From: Bryum argenteum | Taxonomy: Eukaryota; Streptophyta; Bryopsida; Bryales; Bryaceae | Direction: 5' to 3' | Assembly (NCBI GenBank): GCA_037043015.1 | Contig: CM073322.1 | Location: 27,928,364 to 27,992,363 of the forward strand | DNA length: 64,000 bases | In this document: positions 9,971 to 55,206 of the stretch, one piece after another | Layout: each line of letters begins with the position of its first letter | Position numbering within the stretch: position 1 is the stretch's first letter | Notes under the pieces: generated by a model | The model's input: only the letters and a program-made list of their open reading frames with translations | The model's database searches: none | What the model was told of the DNA's origin: nothing | Program-made: the position numbers and the translations under genes

Positions 9971-11269
9971 CCCTTTGTGTGTATTGTCAGTTTTGAGTAG
10001 AAGTGCTGGTTTGTTATCAATGGCGTCACGCGATGATATGCGAAGAAACTCTGACTAGGCTGATGTCCCATACCGTTCGGTGTTTCGTGGGTTGCCGCTG
10101 CCGTACAAGTAGCTCGGAGTGCGTCTCACTCTTCACTTACCTGGGCGGGGTCTATCCATGATCCAGAATGTGGATGGCCTACAGGAGCCTGCCCCATTGC
10201 ACTACGGGCCGGGTGACTGTAGTATCTTCCTACGGGAGGCATACACGTCACAATTTGTGGCTGCGGGGGCTCGCGTTCGCGCGGCCCTCACCCAATCTCA
10301 ACTCACAATTTGGAATCATAAATGTAACCCACACACTTGAGCTAACTGCATAAATGTTTCCCACATTGCAAATTGCTTAAATGTATGCAAATTGTTTGAG
10401 AGTAAAAGCACACCCATAGCTTGTTCACTTATCAAGTAGAAGTAGGGTCGGACTTGGTGTGTCACCCAATTCCAACACCCAAATTCGGAATTAGTATTGA
10501 AATGTAACCCACACACTTGCATGGATGCAAATTGCTTAAATGTATTCCACGGTGCAAATTGCTTGGGATTAAAAGCCCACCTGTAGCTTGTTTGGTTTTC
10601 AAGTTAGGTCGGACCTAGTGTGTCACCCTCGGTTTGCAAAATGCAATATAGGCCTCTAGCTTACACTTATCGTCATATGTATCATTTTTTGGACCATCAA
10701 TTTACTTGAAATTGGATGCACATGAGGCGAATTTTAGAGCTCTTGTTAATTTATTTGATCATACGGTTACATGCCAACTCCGGTTTATGTATTGCCAACT
10801 CCATTTTCTCTATTAGTCAGTATAATCAACAAAATAAACAAGTCTTTTCAAAAATAGGAAACTAAGTAGATGTTTATCTTATTATGACATGTTAACAGAA
10901 TGATGTCTGCACTCACAGGTTTAAATAGCCTCTAATGACCTTCACATTTCTAATCGTTAGTATGCAAAGAGATTATCAAACGCAGCGAGAACGATACACT
11001 CTTCGCGATGCCATCACGACAACGCAAATGTTGCACAAGATCGATCGTCGCCTCTTGAAGCTAGTAAATCTAATCAAATGGATAGCCTAATTGAACCTAC
11101 CCCATAGCACTACGTGTCCAGTGATTGTAGTATCTTCCAACGAGAGGCATAAACGTCATAATTTGTGGCAACAAGGGCTCGCGTTCGTGCACCCCTCACC
11201 CAATACCAACTCACAAATTCAAAATGAGTACTTAAATGTGACCCACACACTTGCATCCGTGCAAATTGC

Positions 11270-11458
11270 TTAAATGTATTCCACGTTGCAAATTGCTTAA
11301 ATGTATTCCACGTTGCAAATTGCTTAAATGTATTCCACGTTGCAAATTGCTTAAATGTATTCCACGTTGCAAATTGCTTAAATGTATTCCACGTTGCAAA
11401 TTGCTTAAATGTATTCCACGTTGCAAATTGCTTAAATGTATTCCACGTTGCAAATTGC
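11270..11458. repeat. 27-bp minisatellite, about seven copies
   Basis: A 27-bp unit containing ttgcaaattgctta and tgtattccacg repeats about seven times with almost no change. Because 27 is a multiple of three, a frame is open on both strands (repeats of CKLLKCIPR or SNLQRGIHL), but there is no other sign of coding. Single or few units of the same phrase occur at 10350-10380, 10500-10570 and 15625-15665, so the array grew from one duplicated copy. Confidence 0.9.
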
Positions 11459-11671
11459 TTGGGAGCAAACGCACACCCATAGCTTATTCGATTATCAAGT
11501 AGGGTAGGACCTCGTCTATCACCCTCGGTTTACAAACGCAATACAAGCCCGTAGCTTACACTTACTGACATATGTGTCCTTTTTGGACCATCTATCTACT
11601 GGAAGTTAGATGCACATTAGGCGAATTTGGGAACACTTGTAAATTTATTTCATCGTACGGTTACATGCCAA

Positions 11672-25543: not shown

Positions 25544-27226
25544 TCACAACATGAGAGGACCGGCATCATTGGTCATGGCGGCAACGAGAGCAGCAGGACG
25601 GGCAGAGAAACTGGTCGCCTTGGCGTAGAAATTCCCCTTTCCCGTCGACCCAGAATCAGTGAAGAAGGCGCCGTTTTGGAACACATCGCCCAAGCTTCGC
25701 CAGTTCCAGCTCTCCCATCCCTTGATGTCGCTGCCGTCGTCGTCGATGCGCTTCGTCACCTCCTTGAATCCCCCGGCCATGAAGAAGTTGCCCTCGCTGT
25801 TGATTGTGGGGCTTTCACTGCCGCCTATCGCATACATCAACCATGGACTGTAGAAGTTGTTCACGATGTGGAAGTACCCGAACCGACACCTGCAGCAACA
25901 GGATTGTTCTCATCGATCACTCACAATGAATGCATCGATCGATCGATCGACAATCCTAAGTCAAAGACTATCAGATTACATTATCATCTATGGACTTAGC
26001 ATTCTTCTGTATAAGCATCTGTTACCTCCCCTGAAGTCCACAAGATTCAACAGAAAATGTTGCCATGTTGCCAGACGGGGTCACTTGTGGTTGAAACTGA
26101 GGTGCTGTGTGGGAGTAGATGGTAGCCTACCTGGGGATGCGCTCGACGAGGCCTTCTCCGAAATGGTTGAACGCGACGGTGACTTGCATGATTTTGTCGT
26201 AGGAGTCTTTGCGATGGCCTCCCAGGAGCATTACCTTGTCGTGATTCGTGAAATAATTGTTGGAAATCGTGACAGCAGTGGAGGCTTCAGTGACATCGAC
26301 CAAGCCATCGGCGCAATGGGAGAGGAAGTTGTGATCGATCCACACATCACGAGAGCCATAGATCGAAATCGCGTCGCCATCAGCCTTCCCTCGGTCGCCG
26401 AAATGGTCGGGGCTGCCGCGAATCACCGCGGGTCCCGTCTGCTTGATGTCGTGGATGTGCAAGCCGTGGATGATGACATTGTTCACGTACTGGATGGTGA
26501 TGCACGCGCCACCCGCGATGTGCACATTGGCGCCCCTCCCGTCGATGGTCTTGAAGCTGTTCACGATGAGCTCGTTCTTCAACTTGATGTTCATGTTGCG
26601 TGAGAAGATGATCCAGAGCGGCTCTGTTTGCATGGCGCCGTACCGGAGCGTTCCGGGTGCTGGGTCTATTACGTCGTCGTCGCTGTCATCTGTCACTACG
26701 TAGATCGCCCCGTTCTTCCCTCCGATGGCTCCCTTGCCGAACCCCACCGCGCAGTCCGCCAGCGCTTGCCGGTTGCTCCTCCAGTGCGGATCACACCTCC
26801 AGCAATCGTCTATCGGATTGCCTGTGCCGCATCCCTTCAACACTCTTCGCGTGTAGTTGTCACTGGATGCATACTCACTGCACAATCAAAAAGGTCCAGG
26901 TCAAAAACAGAGCAGCCATGACAATCTTCTATTCTTCTACCACGAATGCATTGATGGTTCGCATTCAGAACGTCCATTTCAGGATCTGAATTGCCGGATA
27001 CAAAACGTAGCTAGATGGGTTCCAAAGTGAGCAACTTCTGATATCATGAAATCAAAAATCCTGCCATATTTTCAAAAACAAATTGCTCTAAGAGCAGAGT
27101 CTCGATCGCCATAGCGTACCTTTCACTGATAACGGGTGCAGGTTTTTGGGACTCCATCGGACGTGCCGACCAACACAGCGGCAACATTGCAACCAGCACG
27201 AGCGATAACAACGACATTGACGCCAT
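25544..27226 (-). CDS. secreted pectate lyase, polysaccharide lyase family 1
   Basis: Three exons on the minus strand: 27226-27120, 26877-26131 and 25889-25544; about 399 residues, the usual length for plant pectate lyase-like proteins. The enzyme cuts de-esterified homogalacturonan in the wall by Ca-dependent beta-elimination. The start [20 protein letters not shown] is a signal peptide. Family hallmarks in order: [78 protein letters not shown] (Ca-binding acids), [17 protein letters not shown] and [14 protein letters not shown] (catalytic Arg), completed across the last intron by [13 protein letters not shown]. Nothing is missing, so it looks functional. It shares the window with two pectin methylesterases whose product is its substrate. 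Confidence 0.93.
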
Positions 27227-28849: not shown

Positions 28850-29079
28850 GCTTCTTGTGGCCCTCAAAGCTATCCACGCCCACAGAACTCATTTCCAGAG
28901 CCAGGAGTTTCATGGACGGTCCGAGCCTTGACGATGACTGGTTCCATGATACATAATACTATAATATTGTGAAGGGTCCGGAGAGGATGCTCCCTGGCAT
29001 CATGTGCCATGTGAGAATGAGTGCGAGAGAGGGCAGACAGGTTGTTGCGAAGGGAGACGACATGGCAGTGGCCCATACT
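28850..29079 (+). repeat. left copy of a direct repeat bracketing the Cys-repeat gene
   Basis: Matches 32808-33026 in the same orientation with moderate divergence; shared phrases include ttgtgaagggtccgg, ctggcatcatgtg, gagggcagacaggttgttgc and gagacgacatggcagtggcc. The two copies are about 3.9 kb apart and enclose the array gene and its promoter. Confidence 0.85.
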
Positions 29080-29385
29080 AGTACTAGTGGGAGAGTGTGG
29101 TATTTCTAGTGGGCTCTCCGGTCGTATTTTATTTTCTCATTCTAACAAGCTTGATGATAATCCTAGTGGAAATAGTCTAACAAACTTCTTATATTACTAG
29201 TGTAGGAGCACCTGTCTCGATCAACATGTTTGCTTATTTCCATACCATCTTTTGGCATCTTGTGATTGTGCGGATGATTATCACACCCGAGATTTGTATA
29301 TTCAACCAAAGTTCCACATTTGTAAAACCCTACATTTTTTTTTTGGGTCCAACTACAAAGATTAAGCTGTAATCAACTTTAGACA

Positions 29386-29691
29386 TTAACCCCTAAAAAT
29401 TCTTGATTCAAAATTGTCTAAATCACAAAGAAGGACTTTTGTCTACTTTAGGCCGAGAATAACTCATTCTAAGTATTATTTAGAAGATTTAACCACAGGA
29501 TCTTAGAATTCATTTTCCTTTCTACTTGCATGTCGAATTTGAACAGTTGAATTTTTTATTTTTTTACTTATGATATTATAAATTTATAATGGTCGATTTT
29601 CTTTTTTTTTTCTTTTTTTTCTTTTTTTTTTTGTGTGTGTGTGTGTGGAACCCCAAAAATCTATTTCTACTTTCTTGGATCTTAGGGTTAA
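29386..29691. mobile_element. TTAACCCCTAA-family short element, next to the array gene
   Basis: Starts TTAACCCCTAAAAATTC and ends TCTTAGGGTTAA; the interior (aaattgtctaaatcacaaag, ataatggtcga) matches 33673-33941, 45483-45749, 46601-46849 (inverted) and 61165-61427. It ends 11 bp before the array gene's 3' stop. Contains poly-T and a GT run at 29599-29647. Confidence 0.7.
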
Positions 29692-29701
29692 TCTTCACCA
29701 T

Positions 29702-31665
29702 CTATAATTCCATTTGAAGAATTTGTTCCCGTGTCCACTTCCCCATTTTTTTCTCAAAACTATACTCGTCCAAATTACTTCGTAAGTAAAGTTCTTGTTG
29801 AAGCTCATTCCATCTCTTAATATCACTATTAATTTTAACAGATTCCCTCTTTTCATCTTCATGCAAAATGATCACTTCGCAGAGGTTGTTTTGCGTGTGC
29901 ACATTCTTTGGTTCAACTTGAGCACTCTTGAGCAATTCTTCGCAAATTTGGCAAAAGTATGGTCCACGTCCTGGAGCCTTGTAAGGGCAGGGATTTCTAT
30001 TACCGCAAATAGCATAAAATGTTCCCTTCTCTTTGTTGGTTTCCGGAGAAGTTGAAGTTATTGATGTTCCATTCCATTTCTTAATATCACTATTAATTTT
30101 AACAGATTCCCTCTTTTCATCTTCATGCAAAATGATCACTTCAGCAGAGGTTGTTTTGCGTGCGTGTGCACATTCTTTGGTTCAACTTGAGCACTCTTGA
30201 GCAATTCTTCGCAGATTCGGCAAAAGTATGGTCCACGTCCTGGAGCCTTGTAAGGGCAGGGATTTTTACTACCGCAAATAGCATAAAATGTTCCCTTCTC
30301 TTTGTTGGTTTCCGGAGAAGTTGAAGTTATTGATGTTCCATTCCATTTCTTAATATCACTATTAATTTTAACAGATTCCCTCTTTTCATCTTCATGCAAA
30401 ATGATCACTTCGCAGAGGTTGTTTTGCGTGTGCACATTCTTTGGTTCAACTTGAGCACTCTTGAGCAATTCTTCGCAAATTTGGCAAAAGTATGGTCCAC
30501 GTCCTGGAGCCTTGTAAGGGCAGGGATTTCTATTACCGCAAATAGCATAAAATGTTCCCTTCTCTTTGTTGGTTTCCGGAGAAGTTGAAGTTATTGATGT
30601 TCCATTCCATTTCTTAATATCACTATTAATTTTAACAGATTCCCTCTTTTCATCTTCATGCAAAATGATCACTTCGCAGAGGTTGTTTTGCGTGTGCACA
30701 TTCTTTGGTTCAACTTGAGCACTCTTGAGCAATTCTTCGCAGATTCGGCAAAAGTATGGTCCACGTCCTGGAGCCTTGTAAGGGCAGGGATTTTTACTAC
30801 CGCAAATAGCATAAAATGTTCCCTTCTCTTTGTTGGTTTCCGGAGAAGTTGAAGTTATTGATGTTCCATTCCATTTCTTAATATCACTATTAATTTTAAC
30901 AGATTCCCTCTTTTCATCTTCATGCAAAATGATCACTTCGCAGAGGTTGTTTTGCGTGTGCACATTCTTTGGTTCAACTTGAGCACTCTTGAGCAATTCT
31001 TCGCAGATTTGGCAAAAGTATGGTCCACGTCCTGGAGCCTTGTAAGGGCAGGGATTTCTATTACCGCAAATAACATAAAATGTTCCCTTCTCTTTGTTGG
31101 TTTCCGGAGAAGTTGAAGTTATTGATGTTCCATTCCATTTCTTAATATCACTATTAATTTTAACAGATTCCCTCTTTTCATCTTCATGCAAAATGATCAC
31201 TTCGCAGAGGTTGTTTTGCGTGTGCACATTCTTTGGTTCAACTTGAGCACTCTTGAGCAATTCTTCGCAGATTTGGCAAAAGTATGGTCCACGTCCTGGA
31301 GCCTTGTAAGGGCAGGGATTTTTACTACCGCAAATAGCATAAAATGTTCCCTTCTCTTTGTTGGTTTCCGGAGAAGTTGAAGTTATTGATGTTCCATTCC
31401 ATTTCTTAATATCACTATTAATTTTAACAGATTCCCTCTTTTCATCTTCATGCAAAATGATCACTTCGCAGAGGTTGTTTTGCGTGTGCACATTCTTTGG
31501 TTCAACTTGAGCACTCTTGAGCAATTCTTCGCAGATTTGGCAAAAGTATGGTCCACGTCCTGGAGCCTTGTAAGGGCAGGGATTTCTATTACCGCAAATA
31601 ACATAAAATGTTCCCTTCTCTTTGTTGGTTTCCGGAGAAGTTGAAGTTATTGATGTTCCTTCCAT
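29702..31665 (-). CDS. tandem 88-residue Cys-rich repeat protein, family not recognised
   Basis: The minus strand holds seven copies of a 264-bp (88-codon) unit. Each runs GTSITSTSPETNKEKGTFYA, ICG(N/S)(R/K)NPCPYKAPGRGP, YFC(Q/R)ICEELLKSAQ, VEPKNVHTQNNLCEVIILH, EDEKRESVKINSDIKKWN. Four Cys are spaced C-x5-C-x11-C-x2-C, like a small zinc-binding module, with further Cys and His downstream. Nucleotide identity between units is very high. The last unit continues into a unique tail (ELQQELYLRSNLDEYSFEKK, MGKWTREQILQMEL). A frame of 529 codons is open from 31725; I prefer ATG 31665 (MEGTSITS). At about 30140-30170 the sixth-to-seventh unit junction carries five extra bases relative to other units (one A and a repeated GTGC), so the last unit lies in another frame; recent mutation, assembly error or a shorter protein are all possible. 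No function is claimed. Confidence 0.75.
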
Positions 31666-31887
31666 TTTAACACTTTTTTTTTCTCTTAAGAAACGAATAC
31701 TCTTGGTATGTAATAAAACTTGCAACGATCAACTCAAATATTAAGATCCAATAGTCAAACGTGACTCCTGATGAACAATATACTACTGTATAACAAAGTG
31801 TCTTTCTGAAATGTCTTTTTTTTTCTTTTTTTTTTTTGTCGTCAGTTTCTATGGTCAAAAAATATAATGCAGTTTGAAATGAGGCTT

Positions 31888-31905
31888 CACGGCAGTATAT
31901 ATACG
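31888..31905 (-). promoter_or_regulatory. TATA-box candidate for the Cys-repeat gene
   Basis: The minus strand reads CGTATATATACTG here, about 230 bp upstream of the chosen start codon. A leader of this length is plausible for plants. Confidence 0.4.
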
Positions 31906-31907
31906 GT

Positions 31908-32010
31908 ACAGGGGAAAGGCATTCACTGTAACGTAAAAGAAGTACAAAGTAAAAGGAAACAGGGGAAAGGCACTCACTGTAATGTAAAAGAAGTAAAAAG
32001 TAAAAGGAAA
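31908..32010. repeat. two-copy tandem repeat of about 50 bp in the array gene's promoter
   Basis: Two near-identical units (aggggaaaggca, ttcactgtaa/ctcactgtaa, gtaaaagaagta, aagtaaaaggaaac) lie directly upstream of the TATA candidate. Further upstream, 32135-32170 and 32391-32430 hold another duplicated phrase (gactatgagggtata). Confidence 0.75.
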
Positions 32011-32171
32011 CGAAAAAAGGATTAGTTGTACTTTCACTTTTCCCTCACTTATCTCTCCCACAGGTCTCTTCCTAATCACTTGTACTAACTTCTCACTCAT
32101 CACTTTCACTGATTCCTAGCTAAAGACATTCACTATGACTATGAGGGTATATCTCACTAATGTATATCACT

Positions 32172-32390
32172 ACACTAAATTTGATAATTAGTGTTAGATA
32201 CACTGATTTACATAAACATGTTATAAGTTTTTATTGTTGTTCAATAATTTTACCCACTATATTGGCCAAGATGGGGGTCCTTATATAGTATCAGAATCAA
32301 TGCTCTTGGTAAATTTTTTTAAACAAAAGTAAAAACTTTTAGCATTTTCAAATCTCATAATAATCTAATACTAATTATCAAATTTAGTGT
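32172..32390. mobile_element. 219-bp MITE, copy 1, TA target duplication
   Basis: Ends ACACTAAATTTGATAATTAG and its inverse, flanked by TA. The interior (cccactatattggccaagat, gggggtccttatatagta) is nearly identical to 47048-47266, which is exactly the same length. No coding capacity. It sits between two copies of a phrase of about 40 bp (actatgagggtatatctcac and relatives). Confidence 0.88.
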
Positions 32391-35300
32391 ACTCTGACTA
32401 TGAGGGTATACCTCACTAATATATAATATCACTATGTCACCCATTTACAGTAACATGCGCAGAATATACGTTTCGCTTGTCCATGCACCAGAAGCAAAGC
32501 CAATGTTCGCCTGAATTGCCATTCTCCCTCCATGCCATTCTAAGAACTTGTGAATTTTCGAGTACACACAACCCAACTTCGTGGAGGGTTGTCTTATGCG
32601 ACCCTGTCGAAGGTCACACAGACACAACTATCGCACAAACATTCACCCTTGGAGGAGGCAAACGAAAGCGAAGAGGTCAATTTTCGTAATTTTATTATGC
32701 ATTTTCTAGTATAGTCGGACATTCCTGTCGACAGAAATTATGGAAAGTGTGTCATGTAAGACAACCCTAGCTTCATGTGCATCGAATCTGATCTCAGCTT
32801 TTCACTTTGCTTCCTGTGACCCTCAAACCTCTCCACGGAGATAAGAAGTAGCCGATAGAAGGTCCATGACTGGTTCTATGATACATAATAGTAAAATATT
32901 GTGAAGGGTCCGGTCGGGATGGTCCCTGGCATCATGTGCGCATATGAGACTGAATGAGTGCGCGAGAGGGCAGACAGGTTGTTGCGAGGGAGACGACATG
33001 GCAGTGGCCCATACTAAATTCCACCACGCTTGTCTGCCATTGATGAGCGAGGGCCACACTGAAGTGGGTGTGGCAGCAGACGTGGGAATGTGCTCGCCTG
33101 AACGAGACCTCAGGCTCAACGCTCATCCCGCCTGCACCTGCACTACCACGTTGCAGCGCATGTGCATTTCCCCTCATCCATTCTTTGCCGTTCAATCACT
33201 CAGTCATGCTTGTACCAATAGTTATCCTTTCATCCAACTATGTCTTCTCTTTCCTCTCTATTTTGGTCTTCATATTTTATTTTTTTTATTTTTTTTATTT
33301 TTTTATTTTTTTTATTTTTTTATTTTTTATTTTTTTATTTATTTTTTTTAATTTTCTGATTATAATTGTATTTTTGTACGATTGAGTCCAACCAATCGGC
33401 CTTTTGCCCACTTGAATATTTGTTGCATGAGGAGGGCATTGATTTGCTCTCACAAATATTGCAATGAGCATTTTTTTCGGGTGTTTGTTTTCGTACAATC
33501 ACCAAAGACGGAGTTTCTTTTCAAATCAAGATTTGTTTTTTTAATTTTTTAATTTATTTTGTTATTTTTGAAATATGACAATAAATATTTATGAACTACC
33601 TGCTTTTAATTGTTCTTCTTATTTTTTTGGGTTTGAGACAACCTCTTAAGCTAGGGAATGATTGATTGGGCCTTTAAACCCTAAATTTCCTTGTTGCAAA
33701 ACGGTCTAAGTCATAAAATTTGAACTTCCTTTTAGATTAAGCTCAAACATCTCAATCTGAGCATTATTTAAAAGATTCAACCGTTAGATCTCAAAGTTCA
33801 CTTGACATTCTTCTCACATACCAAATTTGAACCGTTCATTCTTCCTCATTTGTGACATTAGAATGGTCAAAGTTGGTTGAGTTTTTCTGCTGTGAGAACC
33901 TCCAAAACCCGTTTCAGATTTTAAGGAAAGTTAGGGGTTAAGGGTAAACCCCCCCCCCCCCCCAAAGAGTTCCAACCTATAATTGGCTTAAAAAACACAT
34001 TTTTGAGGAAAATGCTTTATTTGCAAAATTAAAATGATTTTTTCAAATCTCAACCGTAAAATCATGTAGTAGACTTATTGTCAATTATGTGGGTCATTTA
34101 TTGTCAGTTATTTTGAGTTTTGAGGCCTCATAAATTGCGAGATTATAACGTAATAGCATTCAAAATTCATCATAGAAATTCTACCAATAAACTTCTTGCA
34201 ATGAAAAGACCACAAACTAGAAAGATGTTTACCTTCACTTCGATAACACCCTTGAACCAATAAATGCATGCAAAAACTTTTCATTGCCCAAATAATTTCT
34301 TAGCAAAGGTGGAAACTGCCCCAAAATTTACAAAGAAAAAAAGCGCACCTAAGTGTTTAGGTAAATTTTGCTATATTGGAATTAGAGGTTTGATAGCAAT
34401 ATTTTTCTACAACACTACCCTAAGTAAGACAGCTTGCACGGCCATAAGAACAAGATGGCTTCACTCGTAACCATCCTTTTTTAGCATCTATAGGATATTG
34501 TGAGAACTAGATGGACTTAAAACTAATATCTACTAATGAGAAAGTTTAAAATATTGAATAATAATTGAGTGGGCTGATTTAAGAGCATGCATCTATAAGA
34601 ATAGTTGAAAGTAGAAAATGAGTGAGGTTTTAATATGGTCTCTAAGTGGTTGGTTATAACAATTTGTTAAATTCTATGAAGTAGAGCTCTTCAATCAATT
34701 GAATTGCCTTGATCATAGCACCACATACATTACTTGTGGGTAGTCAACATGTCAATTTATAGAGGATTGCATCGAATATGAGAAAAATATTATGTAAGCC
34801 ACCTTACTAACTTTGTAACTTAGAGAACTTAACTAAGAGAAGATCATCTCACAAAGATCAATGTAAATGTTGTAGCAAAGAACCTACGATAGGATGCTCA
34901 ATAATAACAAAAAAAGAAAAAAAAAAAGAAAAAAAAAAAAAAAGAGGCTTTCAAGCAGGGTGTACAATACAAATTCCGACATCAATTTTCAAAATTCCCA
35001 CAAGATACATTTTTGTACAGATTTGACTATTTGGTTCTAAGTGTTCTTATAAATTCCACTCACAAGAATCATAACTCTACCCCTAAAGGCCCATGAGGTT
35101 TGAAGAAAAAACTTAGATGTGTTATAAAATAAAATATTCCTTTACACTTATGAAGTAATACTCTAAAGACAATATGAAGACCGTTATTTCTAAGTAAAAT
35201 TGATACGGATAAATTTCCTAAAATAGTAACTATTTGTTCTAGTATTAATAAGATAGACTAAAAATTTGAAAATCAATAGAAAATGTATTTTCCATGAGTA

Positions 35301-41218: not shown

Positions 41219-42983
41219 TTATGCTTCAGTTACCCATAATCCACCATCAACGTAACCCAAGCTCATGAACGGAGCTGCTTCCGCGTCGGTAAGTTCGTGA
41301 GACCATGCCGCTCTTTCAGTGTGGTATGCACCGGGTCCGGAACATTTGTACGTTCCGTAGTAGACCGTGCTGCAAGAAACAAAACACCGACACCAACCTC
41401 ATTATCACTAAAATGGCAATAGATATCTCACCTACTAGGAAGTTTGAATTCAGAAAAAAGGATTGGATCATATTACAGGAACAGTGACATTTCAGAGACC
41501 TAATGGGTGCTCTGTATTGAGAGGGATCATTTTGGAAGCACAATCATATATGTCACTATTGGCAAAATGACAGTTTTGGTTCGTCAAAATGGCACTTGCA
41601 TTCAGCGGAATAGCCCATCAACGTGATTGAGAGTTCGATCACGAAATCAACATACTACATAAAAAGACAGAAATGGAGAGGACGGACACGACCGTGAATG
41701 TTCCCCCTCAGAGTACAACTTTGCCAGAGAAAAAACCAAAGCGCAAGCATGGATTCAGAAAATGCTCACCCTTCTCGTGACGGATCGCCCCAGTTATACC
41801 ATCCAAGGGGGTTGATGATATTAGCAAACTCTGTGAAAGCAAACACCACACGCGAATACGGACCCCACGCACGACCAAGGTACACAGTCGCAGGTCCCTC
41901 GCCTGTCACTTTGCAGTTCACGAAAGAGTACCCCGTGTCCTCACTCATGCTCAGTCTCTTTTGCGCCGTCAGGGAGCCACCGGATGATGGAATCACTCTC
42001 AGCTCACAATTCTGCAAAAGCTCAAAAGTAACGGAACAATTCAGAACCCTCGATCAGCAGGGAGAAGGGTCCATGGGTGGTGGAGCTTAGTTACCTTGTA
42101 CAACGACTTGCCATCGCCAAAGATGAAGTCGACAGACCCCACGATGAGCGAGTCCTTGAAGTAATGGCGTCCTCGATCATCGTAAAGAGTGTCTTGTTGC
42201 CCATAGAAAGCGCACCCATAGAAAGCATTGAAGTCGCCTGTGGTTCGCAACGCCACAGCTTGCTGTTGCGCTTCTCCGTTCGGTGGCGGCGAGGCGTTCT
42301 GCACACCATAGCCATTGTAGTACTCTCCCATGATAGTAATTGCAGTCGCTGAGAGACACTAATTGCTCATGATGTCGCGATCAACAAAGGGTTATGTACC
42401 TCAAAGGAGATGTTTCTTGCGGTGAAATAAGGAGCACTGACGCCAAAAGTGGACGTTGTGTACGTAGTGCCCGTCTCCCCGGCTGCATTCGCAGAAGTGA
42501 TCTTGGTGACATCTCGACCTGCTCCTTGCAATGTAATCCGCCACTTGCTCTTCGGCACTACAACCCTTTCACTGCAACCAAGCAAGCAACGTCCTCAATG
42601 GATCAATACAATGACAAAGGTTACGAGCAAGAATCGGGAGGCTCCAGTGACAGAGGGCCTTACAAGTATGTTCCGGCATTGACTTGGATGGTGATGGGAT
42701 CCTTGTTATGGAGAGGTACAGCATTAATAGCTTCGTTGATAGTTTTGTAATTCCCTGCGCCGCCCTGGTCCACTACAATCACGGTCCCTCCAGCGAGCTT
42801 CTTGCCGCTAGTTTTTGCCGAAGCTTCGAACTCTGCATGCTTGGTGGCGACGCTGTCGACCCAGGTTCGGAAACTGGCTATGACTTCCTCGCGACTGGAT
42901 GGCGCTACACCTGAAGCTACAGTAGAAAGTAGTAACGAGAGGAATAGAAGAATCATCACTGGTAAGCCCCAAGTCATCGCCAT
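41219..42983 (-). CDS. secreted pectin methylesterase (no inhibitor pro-region)
   Basis: Five exons on the minus strand: 42983-42664, 42571-42400, 42322-42095, 42011-41770 and 41369-41219; about 370 residues. It demethylates homogalacturonan in the wall (carbohydrate esterase family 8). [20 protein letters not shown] is a signal peptide; an upstream in-frame ATG (43091) would add 36 charged residues and is less likely. Family regions in order: [117 protein letters not shown] and [17 protein letters not shown]. The two catalytic Asp (QQDTL and VDFIFG) are 21 residues apart, as in characterised plant enzymes, and the Arg of LGRAWG is present. It is the short type without the N-terminal inhibitor-like domain. 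Confidence 0.93.
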
Positions 42984-43150
42984 CGCGAAATCACCCGTGG
43001 GCCCACGAGACTGAGTTTCAGTTTGTCTGTCCGCTAGCGCCTCACTAACTCTATCTTCTCTACGATACTTGCATTGAGGATGCGCGGACACTAGCTAGAT
43101 GGCACTCATTTTGCACCTAGCTGGCTTCGTCCGTTACCTGCAGGTAATCG

Positions 43151-46849: not shown

Positions 46850-47047
46850 AGCTACGATGCAAAAGTCTCTCTCACAAGTTGATGCTGATATTCCATGATG
46901 GGATTGGAGGTATTGGGCTGTACTGTACTGTCCTTCATGCTCTTTACTTGAAAGTCCGTCACTCACACTAATTGGGTAGTGAGTCTGTCAGATTGATTGA
47001 TCAGTGACTACCTTATGAAAAATCATGTCCTCTGACTTTTCCACACT

Positions 47048-47266
47048 ACACTAAATTTGATAATTAGTGTTCGATACACTAATTTACATAAACATGTTAT
47101 AAGTTTTTACTGTTGTTCAATAATATTACCCACTATATTGGCCAAGATGGGGGTCCTTATATAGTATCAGAATCAATGCTCTTGGTAATTTTTTTTAAAC
47201 AAAAGTAAAAACTTATAGCATTCTCAAATCTTATAATAATCTAACACTAATTATCAAATTTAGTGT
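47048..47266. mobile_element. 219-bp MITE, copy 2, TA target duplication
   Basis: Same ends, length and interior as 32172-32390 with only scattered differences, so both copies moved recently. TA flanks both sides. Confidence 0.9.
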
Positions 47267-47817
47267 AGCTCATTCATTGATTGATTTGTGCTTTCTTTGT
47301 CATATTGACGAAGAAAGCACTCTCTCAAACACTGGATTGATACATAGAATTCTCACATGGAAGATTTTATTTGTTTTGAACACGAATTAGTGATTCTTAA
47401 CTCCAAAAGCTACGAGGCTTGATTTCAGCATTGTGCCCTCTTTCGGTGCAAGCTAAGATTTTCACTCTGTAATGTATTGTGGGATTGTATCTGTAGGATC
47501 TAGTACCTATCTTGTACATGATGGTGTTTATCAAATCGTAAACTGAAATTCCTCACCGTTTGTGAGAACGCAGTGTTCAAAGTTGAAGAAAGAGGTTTTT
47601 TGCCTTGTTGTTGAAAGGGAAAGCAGTGCTTTGGAGTTCAAAAAAACCATTTTGGAAGAAAATATGGTCTAAGCCTCTTCAAATTTATGTTTTTAGGCAA
47701 GTTAGGTACATGTTCATATAATATTTACCCTCATGCGACACTGAGAACCTAGGAAAAAGCTTGATTTGTCATGTGGGGGTATGCTAAAATTCAAATACAA
47801 AGGCCTATTTTTGACAA

Positions 47818-51302: not shown

Positions 51303-52288
51303 GGAACTTCGTTTTATAGCACCTACGAAAACTGCGCTTCACACAAAGGTGGCACTGCGGCAGTTCGTTGTCACACGGAAACCCAGTTTAATTTTCGGAA
51401 GATAATTCCACACCCATCATTAGGCTTAACCACCAGGTATCACTTTCAGATAGAAAATAACGGAGAATGAACCTGCATATCGCTCTTCATTAGCTCGACT
51501 TTCTCTTCGATCATTGATCAAGCTAGATGTCGGCTTTAAGCAAGTGCAACTTTGATATCTGACATGCCTTTAATGTCAGCTAGCAGCTATACATCGTCCT
51601 ACTTCTTACATACGGAGGCCCTAAAGCCGTATAGGTCCGTTTGAACAAAGCAGCTACCAATAGTTCGTTGTGATGCTGCCGCAGGTAACCTAAATTAAGC
51701 TTAATCATCACGTACTTAAGTTAGTAAACCTTCCAGTAGAACGCCACCGTAAGAGTTAACCAGAGAAATCTACGAGAGAATTCTTACGTCTTGATACGCG
51801 ACAGAACAAGTATATGGTGCAACTAATTTAGTCAGACTGACAGTCAAGGAGAGTGAAGGGGAGCCACCGAACTCTTTCATTCAGCAATCGCAAACGATGG
51901 ACTTGCTCGATCGACTTTAATGCTCTGCACCGATCTCTAGGTATTCTGACAGTCCACGATCGTGTCTCAGTACAGGCATGGCACACCCAATTGATTGCAA
52001 CCCTCGTCGCCAACCCAAGAATGTGGACTGTTCAGCTGTCCCTTGCGAGATCCAGGCTTCAACGCCTAGCATGGCAAGCACTCGAATCACATCATTCAAC
52101 TCACCAGTCGATCAGTCGTTACAGATACATGATCGAAAGCTCGCAACATTGTCAAACCCGATGATTTGGAGCCGTTTCGATGCACAGCCCATAATGAGGC
52201 TACACTCTATCATAGCACTCATTCTTCCCTCTTCGTTGTACTGACAAGTTCTCGGCACCATCAGGGTAGTGCTCGACGTTTCGGAATC
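51303..52288. other. promoter side of the second pectin methylesterase
   Basis: No gene supported; frames at 51853-52164 and 51978-52244 overlap each other and have no family content. No clear TATA box was picked out. Confidence 0.4.
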
Positions 52289-55206
52289 ATGGCTCGCTCG
52301 AGTTTTGTGCACATCTTACACCTGGTGTATGTGTTGCCGCTCTTAGTGAGCTGCACTTTAGCTAATCGGAGCCAGTATGCAGAACCGGACTCGGATGGTG
52401 CGCGCGAATTCATGCAATGGATCGAGAGAGTGGGAAAGAAACACAGGATGAAACAGGAATTTGCAAGGAATGAACTTGTTGGAGAGTGGGATCCCTCCAT
52501 AGCGCAACCAGACCTGTCCGGAAGCTTTCCAGGGCTGAAGCAATACTCGGACTGGGACAGTGTGGTATCCCCTGCAACGTACATCGTTGTGGATCAAAAT
52601 GGGTTCGGAAACTTCAGAGGCATCTGGGAAGCTATCAACTCGATCCCTAATGATATCAATCGCCGCACCCGCATCACCATTCAAGTCAACTCCGGAACTT
52701 ACAGGTACCCTAAATCGTTTCTCACTTTAAAAGCTCCTCTGCTGTGAATCTTGTGTACATATTCCAGCCCGAGCAGGACTTGATCACTTTAATCTTACCA
52801 CAATGATGCCAGTACCTTGTCATACTCTAGTTTGTGTAATTCTTTCCGTTTGTTAAAACCAGAGGTCATTAAGCCATGTCAAATCCAAGTACATGAAATC
52901 TCTTTAATATTGTCGGAGCCATGGAGTACTAAAACGGATGCATGCAGGGAGAAAGTGTACATTGGGAAGGACAAGCCGTTTATTACAATGGTGGGAATGG
53001 GAGACCCTGTAATCGTGTGGAACGACACCAAGGCCGATGCCGGGAACCGGACTTTCGAGAGCGCCACTTTCGGTGTCGGTGGAGATTTCTTCATGGCCAT
53101 TAACATGACGTTTCAGGTAACACTTCCATCTTTCAAGTTCCTATTGTAAATGAATCTCTTGATAAAAGATTGGATTGATTAATGAGGTGGTTCGAAAATG
53201 GATGGCAGAATTCGGCGCCGGCTCCTCCTCCTGGGGCGGTAGGCATGCAAGCGGTGGCTCTCCGGATCACTTCCGACGTTGCAGTGTTCTACAGCTGCAA
53301 AATTCTCGGCAACCAGGACTCTCTGTATGATCACAACGGTCGCCATTACTTCAAGGACTGCTTCATTCAAGGAAGCATCGACTTCGTCTTCGGGGACGGT
53401 CTTTCTATTTATTACGTAAGACCATTCTCTCACTCTCTTACTCAATTCACGGTTTCATGACAACCACCATCTTGTTGCTCATTTAACACCATATGGGTTC
53501 AGTCATTGCTGTCGCTTAAATGTCTATATGGGAGCTTTTGTTAGCAGCTCCCTGAGGTTGGTGCTTCTCTATATTCTATTCAAGTAAGGTGTATCTATGC
53601 TAACAGAAGGATTCGGGACTACAGCTTTGTAAGAATATCAGTCTGATGTGAATAAGTTTCCACATCGAAAATCCATGTCCATGGCTTAACAACGTGATAT
53701 TCCCACTTGTGTTTATTGCAAATATTTGAACTCACTTGTGATGCCAAGTTCCAGTAAATCAAACTACATGGGTTCATTTGGACATGATTATGGTTGAAGT
53801 GGACACCACCTTAGTAGTTGTTGGGACATAGTGATGGTGCTCTTGTCGTTTTAAGAACTTTTCAATACTGAACAAGACTCAAGAGCTCTGCTCTTACTTT
53901 AGCAAGTTTTGAGGAGAATGTTTGATGGCATATTCCTTGTACAGAGATTGAGCTTGATGGAAAGGGTGTGTGCAGAAATGTGAGCTGAACGTGGTACCGA
54001 CAACGTTCGGCGCCGTGACAGCGCAAAAGAGGCAGAATGCGACAGACAATTCGGGGTTTTCATTTCTATTGTGCTGGATCACGGGAGGCGCGGGGCAAGT
54101 GTATTTGGGGCGGGCGTGGGGACCCTTCTCGCGAGTGGTGTACTCCTACACTTGGATGAACGATGTGGTGTATGCACCGGGCTGGTTCGACTGGGGCAAT
54201 TACACCAGACAAGCGTAAGCTCACTTATCACCTCTCATTTTTTCATGGACACCAATCAAGTGAAAACCCATTGTGCAGCTTTAAGTGTTGTAAGGAGTCC
54301 TAGGAGTCCAGTTAATGATTAACCTCAATTCCATAAAAATTGAAGTCAAAATGAGTTCTGTAAAAAGAGAGGGTTTTACTGTAAGGATACGGTAGTGATA
54401 TCACAAAGAAGTAACAAGTTCTCTGTTATGGTTTACTAGATACTAAGTCTGTTTTCAAAATGGTACAAAATGGCAATTTTGGTTGTCAAAATGGCATCTG
54501 AAATATTGCCGTTTTAATGGATTTTCGCTTCAATTTGATGATAAAATATAATCTGACATGCTCCATGTAATTGATTGAATTCGGTATGCATAGCTTAGGG
54601 CCCGATCAAAATTGAAATCTTCGAATTGCTAAGTGTGTGAAACCATCACTTCGATGAATCACCAGTGATCGAAAGATTTAGTGCTTGAATTGAACTGTAT
54701 CTAAATCCAGAAGTTGTGCATTTTGATTCATCTAAGAATTGAACACTGCAAAAGTAGCTCGTTCGAGCCATACATGAGAAACTTGTATTGGTTCAGGGAG
54801 GTTTCTAATTTTAGGAGGGTGAGCAAATAAGTTGAGGTGTGCACTATCTATGTAGAGTCACGGTCTTGTTCTGAGTTTGTTGAGAATATCAATTTGTACC
54901 GATTCAATATTGCATATAGTTCTGCTGTAGATTCTTATGAAGAGGTTTCTATTTCTATTTTTTCCCATTTTGTTTAATGAGGTTCAATTCCGAAGCTTGC
55001 TAACCATGTTGATCACTGCTTGGTGTTGCAGGACGGTGTACTACGGGCAGTACAAATGTACAGGGCCTGGTTCTAATCAGGTTGGTAGAGTACCTTGGTC
55101 CCATGAGCTCACTGATTATGAAGCCGCACCGTTTCTATCGCTTGGTTTTGTAGATGGAGAGGCTTGGATTCCACAATACTTAAGACCAGTTCAACCTATA
55201 GTCTAA
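52289..55206 (+). CDS. secreted pectin methylesterase (no inhibitor pro-region)
   Basis: Five exons: 52289-52704, 52948-53116, 53209-53415, 53976-54214 and 55032-55206; about 401 residues, all phases fit. Intron positions correspond to those of the esterase at 41219-42983, so the two are paralogues. [20 protein letters not shown] is a signal peptide. Regions: [109 protein letters not shown] and [20 protein letters not shown]. Catalytic Asp of QDSL and IDFVFG are 21 residues apart and the Arg of LGRAWG is kept. Differences from its paralogue are large, including a longer, Lys/Arg-rich region after the signal peptide, so the duplication is old. Intron 3 (560 bp) and intron 4 (817 bp) are long. 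Confidence 0.93.

Follow-up and report, generated by a model that had tools for sequence, protein, structure and literature searches.

A seven-unit cysteine-rich array in Bryum argenteum that looks like a recent tandem duplication within a small orphan gene

The repeat array described here looks like an understandable recent tandem duplication and not like a new kind of working gene. The explanation that we favour, with moderate confidence, is that the first 88 codons of a small orphan gene were recently amplified in tandem by unequal crossing-over, yielding a product without a selected multi-module role. In the window (the whole 64-kb stretch of DNA that was analysed), Tandem Repeats Finder places one array at 29806-31667, with a period of 264, 7.0 copies and 97% matches. 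Splitting this array into its repeats gives seven tandem units on the minus strand at 29807..31659, bounded at 31659-31396, 31395-31132, 31131-30868, 30867-30604, 30603-30340, 30339-30071 and 30070-29807; six of the seven measure 264 bp, and unit 6 measures 269 bp. An array of such length and identity is far beyond chance. As the initial annotation had noted, a C-x5-C-x11-C-x2-C pattern is present in every unit, and a six-frame translation scan of the 64 kb located this pattern seven times, each time inside the array. The unique C-terminal tail said to end the array is likewise present, consisting of 34 codons plus TAG after unit 7 (29702..29806, minus strand), as delimited by the unit split and by alignment with a single-unit paralog on another contig (C9; the array itself lies on contig C2).

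The earlier description of a 264-bp unit repeated in frame seven times is correct for the number of units and, with the exception of unit 6, for their length, but the frame is lost in unit 6. From the open reading frame listing and the unit split, the longest ATG-initiated frame of the array comprises 509 codons at 30136..31665 on the minus strand; the listed frame opens at an upstream TTG, and the ATG reading is taken from 31665. Read from this ATG to the stop at 30136, the frame covers five full modules and a sixth that is cut off past its Cys motif, so that six Cys motifs are included and the tail is absent. Alignment of the units shows two frame-breaking insertions (+1 and +4 nt) private to unit 6 at 30143..30167 on the minus strand, the extra bases falling close to 30143 and around 30158-30167. 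Unit 7 and the tail are read in a frame other than that of the array ATG, and the first in-frame ATG there is found only within the tail. A single open frame across all units and the tail, as a functional multi-module gene would have, was not found in this assembly. The limits of 29702-31665 given for the gene are therefore exact as a span from ATG to tail stop, but its two ends are not joined by a common open frame in the assembly. The statement that the frame is kept over 500 codons through to the tail does not hold, as the ATG frame ends in unit 6 after 509 codons. The selection read from that kept frame falls with it, because near-identical units carry whatever frame the first duplication had, making frame retention uninformative on selection, and the frame is in any case broken in unit 6. 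As assembled, the array product is probably truncated, and translation would yield 509 residues that include six Cys4 motifs but lack the tail. Alternatively, the unit-6 insertions could be errors made in assembling a repeat, and the true frame could then run open to the end of the tail.

Leaving the unit-6 insertions aside, the number of differing sites is 3, 3, 4, 4, 4 and 5 between neighbouring units, 0, 1, 2, 0 and 1 at a spacing of two units, and 4, 3, 4 and 5 at a spacing of three. Differences at a lag of two units are below those at a lag of one, and the repeat therefore appears to have grown as a 528-bp pair. The recent expansion that the initial annotation proposed is borne out by these counts, with 0-5 substitutions per 264 bp between units. 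Six sites vary among the units, five of them nonsynonymous (all at codon position 2) and one synonymous. The dN/dS comparison between units that had been suggested as a check on selection thus points against it, and we found no sign of purifying selection inside the array, six sites being too few for a firm dN/dS. Both features expected of a recent intragenic tandem duplication were observed, namely constant-length, near-identical head-to-tail units and a single-unit outgroup locus, the C9 paralog.

This paralog was the only other locus recovered from the searched genome, whose 25 contigs total 258,844,377 bases. At E<=10, protein queries found the array and C9:10381337-10381663 alone (9 matches from 9 candidates and 9 matches from 10 candidates), and the same two loci accounted for all 8 matches to the unit DNA and both matches to the tail peptide. 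These genome searches were heuristic, one having missed the known downstream C9 flank and another having missed upstream copies found before, and further diverged relatives of the module gene may exist in the genome. The C9 gene has one uninterrupted 109-codon frame from its ATG, and its module and tail are 70% identical at the protein level to unit 7 plus tail. The two genes are homologous in module, linker, tail and both flanks, whereas the C9 gene has one module, no array and a transposon in its 5' leader. It also lacks a 45-bp in-frame stretch of the head, which in the array sits between two GGAACAT repeats. In a four-row alignment of three array units and the C9 gene, Cys22, Cys28, Cys40, Cys43 and His58 are invariant. 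The array ATG, its context and its upstream flank are as in the C9 gene, the flank at 31765..32135 (minus strand) aligning with C9:10383397-10383773, and the downstream flank at 29291..29393 aligns with C9:10381121-10381223. The array tail is homologous to the C9 gene tail and is out of frame with the array's ATG reading. Comparison of the window with 109 kb of C9 did not support a block duplication; other matches look like repeats, and a pectinesterase-like gene lies near both genes, on different sides. The window contains cell-wall genes close together, a pectate-lyase and two pectinesterase-like genes (25547-26885, 42044-43094 and 52133-52744).

For the pair formed by the array and the C9 gene, the NG86 method gave dN 0.169, dS 0.346 and dN/dS 0.49, and LWL85 gave dN 0.154, dS 0.225 and dN/dS 0.69. 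By part, NG86 dN/dS was about 0.46 in the Cys core, about 1.1 in the linker and lowest in the tail, at 0.26. Differences at codon positions 1, 2 and 3 numbered 18, 19 and 19, a near-equal distribution that does not look like strong constraint. Among 3000 neutral simulations 200 were stop-free, and in these a dN/dS as low as that observed arose in 21 and an amino-acid identity as high in 2. Protein-level identity of the pair was 71% in the coding frame and 65-69% in the five other frames. The 321 aligned coding bases contain no gaps apart from the one 45-bp in-frame difference, and in the flanks 453 aligned columns are interrupted by 7 gap runs, of which one is three bases long. Taken together, these comparisons lend modest support to an ancestral gene that was a constrained coding gene. 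The weak constraint on the pair, as seen in the codon positions, the estimates of 0.49 versus 0.69, the simulations and the other frames, counts against our favoured explanation.

The module had gone unrecognised in the initial annotation, which agrees with the absence of a significant match for a single module in Pfam, NCBIfam (0 of 2 proteins) or PDB sequences, the PDB search giving five matches with a best E of 0.2. Of the 23 families that Pfam returned at E<=10 for the whole array, six exceeded their cut-offs. The whole-array families zf-C2H2_12, Zn_ribbon_6, zf-C2H2_DHX34, YlxR, XH and IL12p40_C were rejected as summed repeats, because the queries with a single unit (only Tubby_C_like, E 0.056), the C9 protein (NagA_C, E 0.019, and DUF1087, E 0.082) and two isolated 43-residue modules (only the DHX34-like zinc finger, 0.068 and 0.024, and MetOD1, 0.12) all stayed below cut-off. 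The DHX34-like family, PF24485, is the sole lead common to both paralogs, sub-threshold and over the C-x2-C half. It was rejected as the module family, with isolated modules scoring 13.6 and 15.1 bits versus a cut-off of 27; the 32 bits (E 1.2e-7) obtained with a six-unit array were reached only through repeat summing. This C2H2-type finger is like the array module in the C-x2-C half, but the array module has only one conserved His after it. The zf-GRF zinc ribbon, PF06839, bears a superficial likeness through the PGR-x4-C stretch read from the module sequence, and was rejected with no Pfam match at E<=10 and an hhalign probability of 0.1% over 5 columns against a profile of three domains from the same genome, one of them below the Pfam cut-off. 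Pattern searches yielded 1 Cys-pattern match in viral contigs and 111 in prokaryotic genome contigs, with no relative in either set. AlphaFold prediction of one unit plus tail, run without an alignment, had a mean pLDDT of 40.1, too low to use, and a literature search gave no title on such an array among the matches listed. Judging from its Cys spacing, the module probably binds zinc.

Mobile sequences adjoin both genes. At 29386..29691 (unstranded), flank alignment and genome search define a dispersed short element with inverted ends (TTAACCCCTAAA... and ...TTAGGGTTAA) that ends 10 bp from the tail stop codon and is absent at the C9 locus; its main part has at least 38 further matches beyond the window (among the best 40 of 795 candidates), and eight loci were aligned. 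The 5' leader of the C9 gene contains a 1.6-kb element (C9:10381761-10383365) with 35-bp inverted ends (94% alike) and a DDE_3 transposase frame (E 1e-14), about 100 bp upstream of the ATG, and perhaps another similar element is nested within it. Because each of these elements is absent at the other locus, both look inserted later, and neither appears to have carried the module. The initial annotation had raised a match to a known transposon protein as grounds for abandoning the gene; no transposon protein matches the module, transposases included, the module was found at two loci only, and the elements adjoin the genes.

Upstream of the array, the proposed TATA candidate and duplicated phrase were both located, the former as the TATA-like TATATATA at 31896-31903 and the latter beside it as a 51-bp tandem repeat in two copies at 31908-32011, both on the minus strand. 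A block at 31875-31956 with the TATATATA core is common to C9 and three loci on contig C1 (84% over 81 columns; C1:24044312-24044391, 24056990-24057069 and 41811680-41811759), and no module relative was found beside the three C1 copies. This 81-column block may represent either a promoter common to these loci or the end of an element. A direct repeat of about 150 bp (28934-29080 and 32866-33016; 90% identical, 3.9 kb apart) flanks the array, and the genome search returned no third copy of it. A high-copy short repeat lies at 32168-32394 and again at 47044-47271, its best-scored copies (best 40 of 1725 candidates) being 96-98% identical across chromosomes. Farther away, a 27-bp perfect tandem repeat at 11260-11460 (7.4 copies, 100% matches) sits within a region, at 10-19 kb of the window, that is rich in mutually similar repeats.

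Under the favoured explanation, the ancestor would have been a gene of about 110-125 codons with a short head, the C-x5-C-x11-C-x2-C module (putatively zinc-binding), a charged linker and a helical tail, and would have been duplicated to two loci, one on contig C2 and one on contig C9. Tandem duplication of the gene's first 88 codons would then have followed at the C2 locus. The array start reads AAATGGAAGGAACATC and all six unit junctions read AAATGGAATGGAACATC, while at the border of module and tail unit 7 has GATGGAATGAGC and the C9 gene has AAATGGAATGAGC. From these sequences, an 8-bp near-repeat with copies 264 bp apart is the likely breakpoint of the first duplication, AAATGGAA at the start codon having presumably recombined with the near-identical AAATGGAA at the module end; because these stretches are 264 bp apart, the first duplicate would have been in frame by chance. 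Unequal crossing-over would then have enlarged the array in 528-bp steps to seven units. Polyubiquitin and the PRDM9 zinc-finger array are in-frame tandem-repeat genes that evolve by unequal crossing-over. The present array is like them in its near-identical head-to-tail coding units with a length that is a multiple of three, but its module is unrelated as far as tested, its frame is broken and it has no known function.

Several observations could be read instead as those of a working multi-module, multi-zinc protein. On that reading splicing would bypass the frameshift, or the assembly would be wrong there, and several modules together would bind a nucleic acid or protein partner with avidity, copy number being a tunable trait. 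Behind an ATG in good context, five entire modules stand in frame, followed by the Cys motif of a sixth; the four cysteines and His58 do not vary across the four aligned sequences, the C9 gene among them, and the TATA-like sequence belongs to an upstream block also present at C9 and at three C1 loci. Errors in unpolished long reads can be closely spaced insertions, as both unit-6 changes are. We nevertheless consider such a protein rather unlikely, as five of the six variable sites among units alter the amino acid, the part with the lowest paralog dN/dS, the tail, is out of frame, and the retained frame of near-identical units says nothing of selection. The frame break, the lack of any sign of purifying selection among units and the transposable-element-like sequence 10 bp past the tail stop would also suit a non-coding, satellite-like array that passively keeps the open frames of its source gene and makes no product; this is quite unlikely given that the start codon, its surroundings and the flanking sequence upstream are preserved in the same form as at the C9 gene.

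It is very improbable that the array belongs to a transposable element by which the module was mobilised. The dispersed inverted-end element 3' of the array and the DDE_3 transposase element in the C9 leader would be in keeping with mobilisation, but only two loci were found genome-wide, each neighbouring element is absent at the other locus, and the module matches no transposon protein. An intronic or spliced array, with one module joined to the tail to make an ordinary single-module protein, would account for the intact tail and would be served by the presence of the same module in every unit, whole-unit skipping being frame-neutral; the C9 gene, however, is one uninterrupted coding exon, and this arrangement seems extremely improbable. 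The explanation that we favour remains the recent tandem amplification of the first 88 codons by unequal crossing-over, without a selected role for the multi-module product.

A larger significance, which we consider unlikely, would be that of an undescribed plant zinc-binding module whose conserved His follows 15 residues further on; within one genome, a single-module protein would have become a 6- or 7-module protein, two modules being added or lost at a time by unequal crossing-over, and module number might differ between individuals. If the array is not expressed, it serves as a caution that hundreds of open codons in near-identical repeats are not evidence of selection, and that repeats inflate profile-search scores. 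If it is expressed, it would provide a clean natural snapshot of the birth of a repeat protein, with one genome showing the paralog that kept a single unit, the 8-bp homology at the probable breakpoint, expansion by two units at a time and a recent frameshift.
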